Of a DNA stretch of 64,000 nt, positions 18,977 to 22,782 are shown in pieces. Position 1 is the stretch's first letter. Each line of letters opens with the position of its first letter. Under the pieces are notes generated by a model, which worked only from the letters and a program-made list of their open reading frames with translations, ran no database searches and was not told where the DNA came from. Source of the stretch: Eubacteriales bacterium (lineage in GTDB: Bacteria > Bacillota > Clostridia > Oscillospirales > CAG-382); contig JAQVPJ010000005.1 of assembly GCA_028702135.1 (NCBI GenBank), positions 55,626 through 119,625 on the forward strand. The letters run 5' to 3'. Both the position numbers and the translations under genes were made by a program.

Positions 18977-19109
18977 AAGAGAGGGATTCGTTCTCGCCTG
19001 CGGGCTCGGTCAGGGCACGTTCTGACAGTCCACCGGACTGTTATTCATTGCGTGCCCGTTCGAATCCCTGCAAAACCTAATAAAAAAGCCGGGACAAGCC
19101 CGGTTTTTT
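18977..19109. repeat. tRNA-end/hairpin repeat, copy R1 (left of the RM island)
   Basis: Starts with AAGAGAGGGATTCG (3' end of the tRNA-Ser gene read on the plus strand), then an ~80-base imperfect inverted repeat, then GCCGGGACAAGCCCGG with flanking A and T tracts. It is nearly identical to the copies at 22.3-22.7 kb. It shares CCCTGCAAAACC and CCTGCG with R2, so these two are the closest relatives. It begins 67 bases after copZ. From 19110 to 19256 I see nothing else. Confidence 0.85.
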
Positions 19110-19256: not shown

Positions 19257-20288
19257 TTATTGCCTGCTAATATAACTCAAGAGTGTATTAGCACGATTTT
19301 GATTATATTTTCCATCATTATTGAATATGCATGCGTTGCGATATTTTACTATGTCACGTCTGGTAGCAGCTGAGATTATTTCCCAATTATCTAATATATC
19401 TAGTTCATCAATTATATGCCACTTGGTTACTATTTCGCGGTATTGTGTCTTTGAATCTGTTATGCTGTGCAAAGCACACAGTAAGTTCAAATCATTATTA
19501 AATGTTGCACTTGATATATCTCTTATTGTGTTCAGAATATCCTGCATTGAACCTTCTTCACCTGATAAGTACGACCAAAGTTCGTCTGCAATGAGTATTT
19601 CTTCCGGTGCGCAAAATTTATTGAGTTCAATAATGCTATTCATAAAATCTGTTTTGTTGTGTCCTGTGTCTGTCTCAGAAAGCGGATCAAACGGGAAGCC
19701 GAAATAATAATGGATTTCTTTACTCGGATACAGAGACTTTAATACCGTCTTCGATGATAGGATTTTTTGTTTTTCACCACGCATTTCGCCAGAGTTCGGG
19801 CGAACAGATTTCAGCTCGATTGCTACTACTTGGTGTTCGTCTTCAAAAAAGCAATCAGCAGTAAAATCAGGAGCATTCGATATTTCTCCATGTGCCGCAG
19901 CAGCAATCAATGATTCCTCCCTTGCAACACTGGGGGTATATGTATTATTCTTTAAGTCGGTCATTATGTTGAAGATTACATTCGACTGTGCTGTATATAT
20001 TCTATTGTTTTTGAAAGTTTTCTTTTCACCGCATGAAAGAATATGCGCTACATTTTCAAAAAAAGATTGACCTAATGTGGTATTTAAGCCATGCATCCAT
20101 GAACTCATGTTAATAAGCGAATCAATATTGGTGTTTAAATCTGTGAATTTATCATCAAAAGCCCGTAAAAATGCTTTGTGAAAAGGAGCATTGCGTGTTA
20201 ATGTAGTATCATCAGGAAAAGAATCAAATCTTGATTTTAATACTTTTATCGTTTCAAATGCAATGAGTTGCTTCTTTCTTTTATCCAT
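19257..20288 (-). CDS. type II restriction endonuclease, TdeIII-like
   Basis: 343 residues, cytosolic. A PD-(D/E)xK-type nuclease core is visible: APDFTADCFF followed by QVVAIELKSVRPNSGE, where the Asp, Glu and Lys would bind metal and cleave. The overall sequence resembles the TdeIII family as I remember it. It overlaps the methyltransferase stop by 8 bases, so M and R are translationally coupled with R last, a typical order that lets methylation precede cutting. Base composition is clearly more AT-rich than copA next door, consistent with acquisition by transfer. The recognition site cannot be read from sequence. Confidence 0.75.
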   Translation of the reverse strand: MDKRKKQLIAFETIKVLKSRFDSFPDDTTLTRNAPFHKAFLRAFDDKFTDLNTNIDSLINMSSWMHGLNTTLGQSFFENVAHILSCGEKKTFKNNRIYTAQSNVIFNIMTDLKNNTYTPSVAREESLIAAAAHGEISNAPDFTADCFFEDEHQVVAIELKSVRPNSGEMRGEKQKILSSKTVLKSLYPSKEIHYYFGFPFDPLSETDTGHNKTDFMNSIIELNKFCAPEEILIADELWSYLSGEEGSMQDILNTIRDISSATFNNDLNLLCALHSITDSKTQYREIVTKWHIIDELDILDNWEIISAATRRDIVKYRNACIFNNDGKYNQNRANTLLSYISRQ

Positions 20289-21888
20289 TATTTTTCTCCT
20301 TCATTCTGAAAATAATCTCGGAATACGCATTTTTGTCTTTCTCTGTTCTGTTTAAAACAGGACGTTTGAACTGCTCAATTATTTGCATTCCAGCCTTTTT
20401 TGCAATAGTTGGATATACATTATGTTTATCATTAGCAACGATAAACACGTTATGATCTGGCTTTAAAAATCGTTTGCAATTAATCAGAACACTCGCTATA
20501 TCATCAATGTATTTTTGAACTGATATACGATTTCTACCTTTTGCCATGGAACCTATTTCTAAGGAATCTTTGCGCTCAAAACCAAACAATTCGTACGCAT
20601 AAGCATGCTGTTCATGATAATCAATTAGTCCGACGTATGGTGGGCTACAAAAAATTCCGCTAATCTTGTTTTGATTAAATTGCTTTGAAAGATTTCCACC
20701 CAGTAAACTAATTTTGTCATCTAAATTCATCGTTGCAGAATCACCTGTAAAACAAAACTGAACAGTATTTGTTCGAATCGATGAAAACTGTTTTACTCTA
20801 TTTATGGTGTCATTGCTATATGTTTTCCACCATTTTAGAATGCTAAATAATGGTTTGCAGATTTTTTTATGCTTTGTGCAGTAGTAAGTGGTATAAATCG
20901 GCTCAATTAAAGTTGCCAAATCAGAGTGGGTTGTTGCTCTGCAAGATCTGATTGTACGTGATAAAATAATTTGTAGAATACATTTTATCGGATTATCATC
21001 AATCAATGAAATAAGAGAATTTACAAAATATATTTCTTTTCGTGCTGTGTCAAAATACCATTTGTCAATAAAACTCGTGTCTGATACATTTAAGCTTACG
21101 CCATATTTCGCCGCAATATTATTGAAAACAGGGAGAAACGCTCTTTCCTTTTCTAAAGCATATGAATTTTCATTTACTTGCTTGTTGTATACTGCTTTTC
21201 GAAATTCCGGCGATGGGAAATATTTACTGTTAAACTCATAAAGAGCTTGCAAAAGTTCCTCCTCAAAAGGTTGGACATTAAGCTGTTTTTCATAGTTTTC
21301 AAGTAGCTCGGTAATGGTTTTTACTTTCTCCTCGAATACTCCAATATTGTATTTTTGAATTTTACAATTAGAAATCTGTGAGTTAAATAATGAGATATCA
21401 ATACCGACAGCATGCATACCAAGCTCATTCGCTTGTACCAGTGTTGTCCCACTTCCACAAAACGGGTCCAGCACGATGTCACCTTCCGAAAAATATGTCT
21501 CTGTTTTGAAGTCATCGGTATGACTATCAAGAAAATATTCTACAAGTTGAGGTATATATTTTCCCTTGTATGGGTGAAGCCGATGTACATGTTTTGTCGT
21601 TTGCGCCTCGCTGTAGTTATCAAAAGATAATGCCCAGTTAATATCTTCTCCAAGTTTCATTTTCCACTCAATTTCACGTTTACCTACAAAGGAACGATAA
21701 TATGCATCAAGTTGTTCATTATCAACGAATACACCGTGGCCTGTGGAGAATCTGTCGATCCTTCCATATTGTACCAAGTAGTTAATATTTGACGGGGTAA
21801 CTTCTTTACCCACAATCGAAGAAGCATATTTTGCAGCCTCTTCAAAACTTAACATTTTTTTCATTATACTCTCCGTATGACTAATCAT
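20281..21888 (-). CDS. DNA methyltransferase (N4-cytosine/N6-adenine class) of the RM system
   Basis: 535 residues. Residues ~10-70 (FEEAAKYASSIVGKEVTPSNINYLVQYGRIDRF) look like a MerR/excisionase-type helix-turn-helix fused in front. The SAM-binding motif is DPFCGSGTTLVQANELG (~145) and the catalytic motif is CSPPYVGLIDYHEQ (~410), the SPPY form typical of amino-methyltransferases; the order is motif I before motif IV. The ATG at 21888 overlaps the stop of the upstream regulator remnant (ATGA). ATG at 21864 with GGAGAG upstream is an alternative start. Methylation of the host site would protect it against the downstream endonuclease. Confidence 0.85.
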   Translation of the reverse strand: MISHTESIMKKMLSFEEAAKYASSIVGKEVTPSNINYLVQYGRIDRFSTGHGVFVDNEQLDAYYRSFVGKREIEWKMKLGEDINWALSFDNYSEAQTTKHVHRLHPYKGKYIPQLVEYFLDSHTDDFKTETYFSEGDIVLDPFCGSGTTLVQANELGMHAVGIDISLFNSQISNCKIQKYNIGVFEEKVKTITELLENYEKQLNVQPFEEELLQALYEFNSKYFPSPEFRKAVYNKQVNENSYALEKERAFLPVFNNIAAKYGVSLNVSDTSFIDKWYFDTARKEIYFVNSLISLIDDNPIKCILQIILSRTIRSCRATTHSDLATLIEPIYTTYYCTKHKKICKPLFSILKWWKTYSNDTINRVKQFSSIRTNTVQFCFTGDSATMNLDDKISLLGGNLSKQFNQNKISGIFCSPPYVGLIDYHEQHAYAYELFGFERKDSLEIGSMAKGRNRISVQKYIDDIASVLINCKRFLKPDHNVFIVANDKHNVYPTIAKKAGMQIIEQFKRPVLNRTEKDKNAYSEIIFRMKEKNNG

Positions 21889-22129
21889 TTTAGTTTATTT
21901 TTTTCGGTGGGACGAATCGAATCTATCCACTCAGTTTCTATGGCTTTATAGGTAATCTTGTTTTTATCGCAGAAGTTGATTATAAATATCATAGCTGTAT
22001 ATTTTGGTATAGTTCCGCCAGTTTCCCATCTTTTTACTGTGGAAAAAACAAATCCAATTCTTTTACAAAACCCTCTTGACTTAATAACGCTTTTTGACGA
22101 ATAAACTTAATATCATATGAAAATGCCAA
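21885..22129 (-). pseudogene. frameshifted XRE-type regulator (possible RM controller)
   Basis: Not in the ORF track. A TTG start at 22129 with AGGAGG 8 bases upstream opens LAFSYDIKFIRQKALLSQEGFVKEL. The continuation is in another frame: KRIGFVFSTVKRWETGGT, then IPKYTAMIFIINFC, to a stop at 21885. Together they give a complete ~80-residue Cro/CI-type helix-turn-helix protein if one base is restored near 22053 (TTGGATT, where TTGGGATT would keep the frame). Its end overlaps the methyltransferase start by four bases. Small XRE proteins ahead of M and R genes are commonly controller proteins, so regulation of this RM operon may be lost. Confidence 0.7.
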
Positions 22130-22157
22130 ATTCGAGTCCTCCTGTTTTTATAGCTTT

Positions 22158-22327: not shown

Positions 22328-22403
22328 AGATTCGTTCTCGCCTGCGTGCCCGTTCGAATCCCTGCAAAACCCAATAAAAAAGCCGGGACAAGCCCGGTTT
22401 TTT
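22328..22403. repeat. tRNA-end/hairpin repeat, copy R2 (internally deleted)
   Basis: Contains GATTCGTTCTCGCCTGCG joined directly to TGCCCGTTCGAATCC, so ~50 bases of the hairpin are missing. The break lies at a TGCG that occurs on both sides in the full copy, which suggests microhomology deletion. The GCCGGG/CCCGG terminator part is intact. It forms the right border of the RM island. The tRNA-derived head is also missing. Confidence 0.8.
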
Positions 22404-22545
22404 CTTGGCGGAAAGAGAGGGATTCGTTCTCGCCTGTGGGCTCGGTCAGGGCACGTTCTGACAGTCCACCGGACTGTTATTCATTGCGTGCCCGTTCGAA
22501 TCCTTACAAAGTCCAATAAAAAAGCCGGGACAAGCCCGGTTTTTT
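22404..22545. repeat. tRNA-end/hairpin repeat, copy R3 (142 bp)
   Basis: Full unit: TTGGCGGAAAGAGAGGGATTCG (exactly the 3' end of the adjacent tRNA-Ser, including CCA), then nested inverted repeats (GGATTCG/CGAATCC, GGGCACG/CGTGCCC, ACAGTCC/GGACTGT), then a short spacer and an AAAAAAGCCGGGACAAGCCCGGTTTTTT terminator. The period to the next copy is exactly 142 bases. Confidence 0.9.
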
Positions 22546-22687
22546 CTTGGCGGAAAGAGAGGGATTCGTTCTCGCCTGTGGGCTCGGTCAGGGCACGTTC
22601 TGACAGTCCACCGGACTGTTATTCATTGCGTGCCCGTTCGAATCCTTACAAAGTCCAATAAAAAAGCCGGGACAAGCCCGGTTTTTT
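22546..22687. repeat. tRNA-end/hairpin repeat, copy R4 (142 bp)
   Basis: By eye identical to R3. Its terminator hairpin is at the same time the terminator of tRNA-Ser (minus strand AACCGGGCTTGTCCCGGCTTTTTT directly after CCA). The tRNA itself then starts with the same 22 bases as each unit. Confidence 0.9.
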
Positions 22688-22689
22688 CT

Positions 22690-22782
22690 TGGCGGAAAGA
22701 GAGGGATTCGAACCCTCGGTCGGGTGTTACCCGAACACACGATTTCCAGTCGTGCGCCTTAGACCAGCTCAGCCATCTTTCC
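22690..22782 (-). tRNA. tRNA-Ser (GGA anticodon)
   Basis: A 93-base gene with encoded CCA. The acceptor stem GGAAAGA pairs with TCTTTCC, followed by discriminator G and CCA. The anticodon arm ACGACT-GGA-AATCGT reads GGA in a 7-base loop. A long variable arm (GTTCGGGTAACACCCGAC) marks a class II tRNA, and the T arm has GGTTCGAATCC. It reads UCC/UCU serine codons. It has its own consensus promoter upstream, and its 3' end has been copied into the repeats downstream. Confidence 0.97.

Follow-up and report, generated by a model that had tools for sequence, protein, structure and literature searches.

The closest described counterparts of the elements considered here are the tRNA-linked repeats of Escherichia coli, first described in 1978, whose final 18-19 bp are the same as the 3' end of the tRNA or rRNA located upstream; the rrn copies apart, no function is known for them (PMC8144298). 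The rrnB element lies between both terminators of rrnB and is transcribed by read-through of T1; the RNAs of the rrn copies bind Hfq and CsrA (PMC8144298). Here, we analyse a stretch of 64,000 nucleotides (the window) from contig JAQVPJ010000005.1 of a Eubacteriales bacterium of the order Oscillospirales, in which an array of short hairpin units follows tRNA-Ser(GGA), the sole tRNA gene in the window. Such units fall under the general definition of tRNA-linked repeats wherever they stand behind a tRNA: in the window and in relatives they lie immediately downstream of the tRNA, and the copied end is 21 nt long, compared with the published ~18-19 bp (PMC8144298). In our opinion, they are probably mobile hairpin cassettes of the tRNA-linked-repeat kind. 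E. coli-like anatomy with unrelated cores is found in a large order of gut bacteria, together with signs of mobility, arms matched to the site, and a restriction-modification cargo. Insertion sites, units and arms are directly readable in the resulting comparative data set, which makes the origin of tRNA-linked repeats testable.

A full unit, read along the minus strand, consists of a terminator, a linker, an antisense T-arm, a predicted folding core, and a copied tRNA 3' end with CCA. The first-pass annotation of this locus had described a tandem family with an exact 142-bp period, and this is borne out: TRF reports a period of 142 at 22343-22710 (2.6 copies, 98% matches), and units 1 and 2 (22406-22689) are equal at every base. 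It had also given the copied tRNA end 22 bases; the copy and its CCA are present, while its length in units 1 and 2 is exactly 21 nt (CGAATCCCTCTCTTTCCGCCA), one base fewer. The terminator that it placed in each unit is CCGGGCTTGTCCCGG followed by a T-run on the minus strand, a sequence observed four times in the window against zero expected, and units 1 and 2 are flanked by one terminator on each side. Its three nested stem tiers correspond to P1, P2 and P3, to which a small P4 can be added; shuffled sequences fold less stably than the unit on both the tRNA-sense strand (z -3.1) and the opposite strand (z -3.9). Insertion of a unit leaves the tRNA gene whole, since the unit brings a terminator and a copied tRNA 3' end that includes CCA. 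The minus-strand reading, the losses in unit 3, the distal unit 4, the antisense T-arm, and the restriction-modification cargo are additions of the present analysis. A hammerhead-ribozyme-like three-way junction was considered and dropped, as there are subtypes without the motif.

The likeness to the E. coli repeats extends to several features. In both cases tandem units lie directly behind a tRNA, the copied tRNA 3' end starts in the T-loop, and an antisense T-arm precedes the hairpin core; at proK, the start of the terminator recurs after the second tRNA end. The antisense T-arm is a feature found in the present analysis and lies outside the published definition of tRNA-linked repeats. In E. 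coli K-12 it stands before the core in the repeats at tyrT, tyrV and proK (L287 600-1640, minus strand; L289; L293), where it matches at 15 of 21 bases, with 0-5 of 2000 shuffles as good; at argQ it is not significant. No earlier description of this arm was found in the open literature searched, and we do not claim priority for it; a literature search for equivalents elsewhere likewise gave nothing relevant. The clostridial units differ from those of E. coli in having unrelated core sequences, in occupying many more kinds of tRNA as well as tmRNA, in occurring also away from tRNA genes, and in carrying genes. No match to RtT RNA (RF00391) was obtained in the window at the gathering score, the tRNA being the sole Rfam match, whereas four tyrT/tyrV units and the proK unit of E. 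coli do match RF00391. The units therefore look like tRNA-linked repeats that fall outside the RtT RNA family.

The arms of the elements track the tRNA beside which they lie. Over 52 tRNA-linked elements, which together represent 24 kinds of tRNA, the match of the antisense arm to the T-arm of the element's own tRNA was 557, compared with 472 +/- 6.8 when arms and tRNAs were permuted (maximum 494 in 300 permutations; z about 12). Covariation within stems P1-P4 is strong: 61 double changes were counted versus 15.5 in shuffles; the permutation and shuffle tests take in related sequences, with kinship uncorrected. A second count gave 359 double changes versus 103, on an alignment that was fitted to the model and in which P1 includes copies that have no tRNA. 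The search pattern did not constrain one pair of P3: there, 57 copies have T-A and 35 have C-G (n=92), with no mixed pair and no G-T; G-U pairs are likewise absent from P3 and rare in P2. This pattern favours selection acting on pairing in DNA, with which an RNA structure would also be compatible.

The core is widespread among relatives. Outside the locus in the window, its own genome (a draft in 38 contigs) contains no other copy; the case considered in the first-pass annotation, a repeat confined to this locus, is thus true of this genome and false for relatives. The core was found beside other tRNA genes there, as that annotation had proposed to check, both by DNA search and by covariance model. 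The DNA search matched 37 of 149 relatives, near tRNA-Ser, -Arg, -Gln, -Leu and -Glu. Covariance model R1 matched 88 of 295 genomes and 47 of the 148 genera of the order, the richest genomes holding at least 15 scored copies; these samples are draft genomes and metagenome-assembled genomes (MAGs), and the R1 tallies exclude a second core family described below. Outside the order, one of ~340 genomes of the phylum matches, weakly, and belongs to the same class. Most of the named carrier records belong to ruminant-gut Clostridia and Oscillospiraceae MAGs, and tandem spacing, from 133 bp upward, is frequent in unrelated genomes. Among pattern-found loci (87 searched), 29 copies have a tRNA nearby, and 28 of these immediately follow its 3' end in the same orientation; tmRNA 3' ends also serve as sites. 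For 70 of 99 copies at such loci no tRNA was detected within 400 bp, in some cases because of contig ends, near which many copies in other genomes lie. Many of the tRNA-distant copies are embedded in a dispersed repeat, GGCTCCCC...GGGGAGCTGTC...GACTGAGGGG, where they occupy the first hairpin (L062, L065, L068, L083, L102 and other loci); coreless copies of this repeat exist as well. In MAG SIG473 (L067, L080, L097, L121, L123), a core and its fixed flanks form a dispersed repeat of their own. A blastn search of annotated phages and plasmids gave no match; an exact-pattern scan of viral contigs matched eight, and L182, the one among them that was read in detail, has tRNA-type arms beside phage-like genes. 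The core also occurs in a MAG named Candidatus Colimorpha enterica (L103, L106), placed by NCBI in Bacteroidales, which may reflect contamination or transfer.

Several comparisons point to movement. In one genome (G006), cores identical over 66 nt stand behind tRNA-Ser(gga) and tRNA-Ser(gct) with different arms, each fitting its own target; a further copy, which differs by two compensatory changes, stands at tmRNA with arms fitting the tmRNA. The orthologous tRNA-Ser site, recognised by similar upstream sequence, is empty in a genome of the window's genus (G001) and in G018, and occupied in G000, G006, G026 and G033 (L205). At L206, three units share one backbone and carry cores A, B and A. 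The first-pass annotation had offered hairpin insertion or slippage as the origin of the array. Insertion is strongly supported by the presence of the core behind many tRNAs, and duplication fits units 1 and 2. At L108, L200, L204, L031 and L032, what follows the first tRNA end resembles what follows the second as far as the terminator's T-run, beyond which the similarity stops; either a transcript-templated copy or selection on the terminator alone could account for this. L243, behind a tRNA-Ser, has an inverted T-arm followed directly by a tRNA end with no core between them, and is perhaps a unit whose core has been lost.

In the direction of the tRNA, the array runs from the CCA end through units 1 and 2 to unit 3, a TdeIII-type restriction-modification system, and unit 4, which is 3.4 kb away from the rest (Table 1). 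In unit 3 the P3 hairpin is missing, as is the tRNA end beyond CGAATC. Units 3 and 4 have linker details in common, which would make them sisters around the cargo; units 1 and 2 have another linker and share a private arm mutation. Since this mutation fits duplication of one inserted unit better than two insertions, units 1 and 2 most likely represent a recent tandem duplication, by slippage or unequal crossing-over. A helix-turn-helix-like remnant upstream of the methyltransferase is broken by frame changes and is possibly a former control gene. A comparable cassette of two genes, encoding a four-helix-bundle protein (PF05635) and a deaminase-like protein, lies in genome G077 (L194 5746-7090) between two cores that both end in a tmRNA 3' end.

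Table 1. Features of the tRNA-Ser(GGA) array and its cargo (window coordinates)
Feature	Position	Strand	Evidence or content
tRNA-Ser(GGA), array host gene	22690-22782	minus	ARAGORN; Rfam RF00005, 57 bits
Unit 1, 142 bp	22548-22689	minus	tRNA-end copy at 22548-22568
Unit 1 core and arms	22561-22646	minus	covariance model R1, 93.1 bits
Unit 2, 142 bp, same sequence as unit 1	22406-22547	minus	tRNA-end copy at 22406-22426
Unit 2 core and arms	22419-22504	minus	covariance model R1, 93.1 bits
Unit 3, truncated	22329-22405	minus	terminator, linker, antisense T-arm, core lacking P3, right arm
Remnant of small helix-turn-helix-like gene	21900-22140	minus	three-frame reading by eye
Type II DNA methyltransferase	20281-21888	minus	Pfam N6_N4_Mtase; PADLOC MTase_II, E 1.7e-210
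TdeIII-type restriction endonuclease	19257-20288	minus	Pfam RE_TdeIII, E 2.2e-51; PADLOC REase_II
Unit 4, distal copy	18977-19109	minus	terminator, linker, antisense T-arm, full core, 14 nt of tRNA end
Unit 4 core	18983-19068	minus	covariance model R1, 98.9 bits

We propose that a unit joins the T-loop of its target near C56 and, by supplying a tRNA end and a terminator of its own, would leave the tRNA functional. The reaction would be carried out by a recombinase or transposase acting in trans that recognises a folded single strand made up of the core and its paired arms. Genes caught between two units would ride along, as the restriction-modification system of the window may have done, and identical tandem units would expand afterwards by duplication. 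Candidates for the mover were sought in carrier genomes. A Y1 transposase was rejected, having no match in core-rich G000, G077, G167, G289, G065, G104, G010, G006, G102 and G144, as was a reverse transcriptase, RVT_1 having no match in most core-rich genomes. The integron integrase model TIGR02249 exceeded its cut-off in 0 of 28 carrier genomes and in 0 of 14 control genomes. A Y2 transposase (IS91/Y2) had no match in carriers, and the control genomes gave none either. The distribution of the PF05635 four-helix-bundle protein does not fit a common mover, and no integrase gene lies inside the 142-bp units. Phage-type integrases beside two arrays look, by eye, like parts of neighbouring islands: the G007 enzyme is apparently part of an island at the same tRNA-Arg, and the G113 enzyme lies on the opposite side of the tRNA. 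Genomes G144 and G123 show only two tyrosine recombinases each, all Xer-like in size. Since Y1, reverse transcriptase and integron integrase do not occur consistently in carriers and these recombinases are Xer-like in size, host Xer-type enzymes acting on the folded single strand are possible movers. A bolder proposal, which we regard as doubtful, is that the units of Enterobacteria and Clostridia form one class of transposable hairpins whose left arm is rewritten from the T-arm of each new target by a novel enzyme. If this were so, one core could settle behind any tRNA, amounting to target-templated transposition.

It should be noted that several points weigh against mobile cassettes. Mobility is read from sequence, no insertion, circle or excision product having been observed, and the copy number in the window is that of the draft assembly. 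Pairing of the arms alone does not account for the match to a new tRNA. No recombinase is present among the 25 of 64 protein families listed for the window, and core-rich genomes have no recombinase in common beyond Xer-like proteins. Most tRNA-linked units carry no genes; therefore, the cargo may be incidental.

Among the competing explanations, the one that deserves most attention, although we consider it unlikely, holds that the units are RNA genes or processing elements: read-through of the first tRNA terminator would yield a small RNA, an output that the first-pass annotation had also envisaged, and this RNA would be processed at the copied tRNA end and stop at the second terminator, conservation would reflect RNA function, and copies would arise by ordinary duplication. 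The position of units 1 and 2 between two terminators suits such a scheme, as do the read-through of T1 into the E. coli rrnB element, whose product binds Hfq and CsrA (PMC8144298), and the status of RtT RNA as an Rfam family. It is harder to reconcile with the ~70% of copies at pattern-found loci that have no tRNA within 400 bp, with the scarcity of G-U pairs in P2 and P3, and with an identical core at different tRNAs of one genome; moreover, no function was known for the E. coli repeats themselves until work on the rrn copies (PMC8144298). Tandem duplication alone, with one old insertion, arrays made by slippage and unequal crossing-over, and mobility that does not continue, would explain the identity of units 1 and 2 down to their private arm mutation and the near-identity that tandem backbones often show elsewhere (L190, L209, L198). 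We judge it improbable as a full account, given the alternation of cores A, B and A in one backbone, the presence of one core behind different tRNAs, the existence of both empty and occupied orthologous sites, and the wide scatter of copies.

Integron attC sites place a hairpin between R'' and R' boxes, and the units could be read in the same way, as cassettes whose core serves as an attC-type site, with the tRNA T-arm in the role of attI. The resemblance lies in genes followed by a folded site, uniformly oriented as the tRNA (in the window and in G077), and in a hairpin that separates outer paired arms. The clostridial arms, however, follow the target and not a fixed box: the GTTRRRY R' box is not conserved at the crossover, where, by eye, the right arm matches the tRNA at each site (e.g., CGAATCCC, CAAATCCC, CGATTCCC). 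Most units are also geneless, and with no carrier genome exceeding the integron integrase cut-off, this origin is very improbable. Least credible of all is an assembly artefact or misjoin. The draft state of the genome, on whose assembly the copy number rests, and the many copies near contig ends elsewhere might suggest one, but the anatomy recurs, with site-specific arms, in dozens of independent assemblies. Comparable arrays are present among these, and the array is real.

The proposed mobile hairpin cassettes may also be set beside other known elements. As with genomic islands at tRNA 3' ends and tycheposons, the target is the T-arm and the tRNA 3' end is restored; the clostridial units differ in being usually ~140 bp long and in having no integrase gene of their own. 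They resemble REP/RAYT (Y1) and MITE-like repeats as short, dispersed, geneless hairpins, whereas the Y1 transposase of the REP/RAYT system is missing from many core-rich genomes and the clostridial arms are matched to the target. Restriction-modification systems inserted with long target duplications likewise have their genes between long direct repeats, but the repeats of the window belong to a hairpin family also found without such genes.

The same layout is found with a second core, GCGTTAAGAAAACAGTCC...GGACTGTTTTTAGC, behind many tRNAs, in a search seeded from the tRNA-Ser unit of G025/G017; this family was judged on sequence and position, without a covariance model. It occurs at L257-L286 (e.g., L257, L258, L281), in several genera that have no match to the first family. 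Arrays at L020, L021, L022 and L105 lie 5' of tRNA-Leu(CAA) and carry the tRNA 5' end; there the arm derives from the anticodon region and is direct, not inverted. At L029-L033 and L190, the P3 or P4 loop of the core contains other hairpin inserts, several of the GGGGTCCCC type. In a permissive Rfam search, tRNA and Gut-1 were the sole matches of interest; Gut-1 RNA (RF01706) lies near tRNA-linked units at L016 1313-1429 and L005 1283-1364, one of which passes the gathering score. By eye, other tRNA-linked units are followed by similar arrays of short hairpins.
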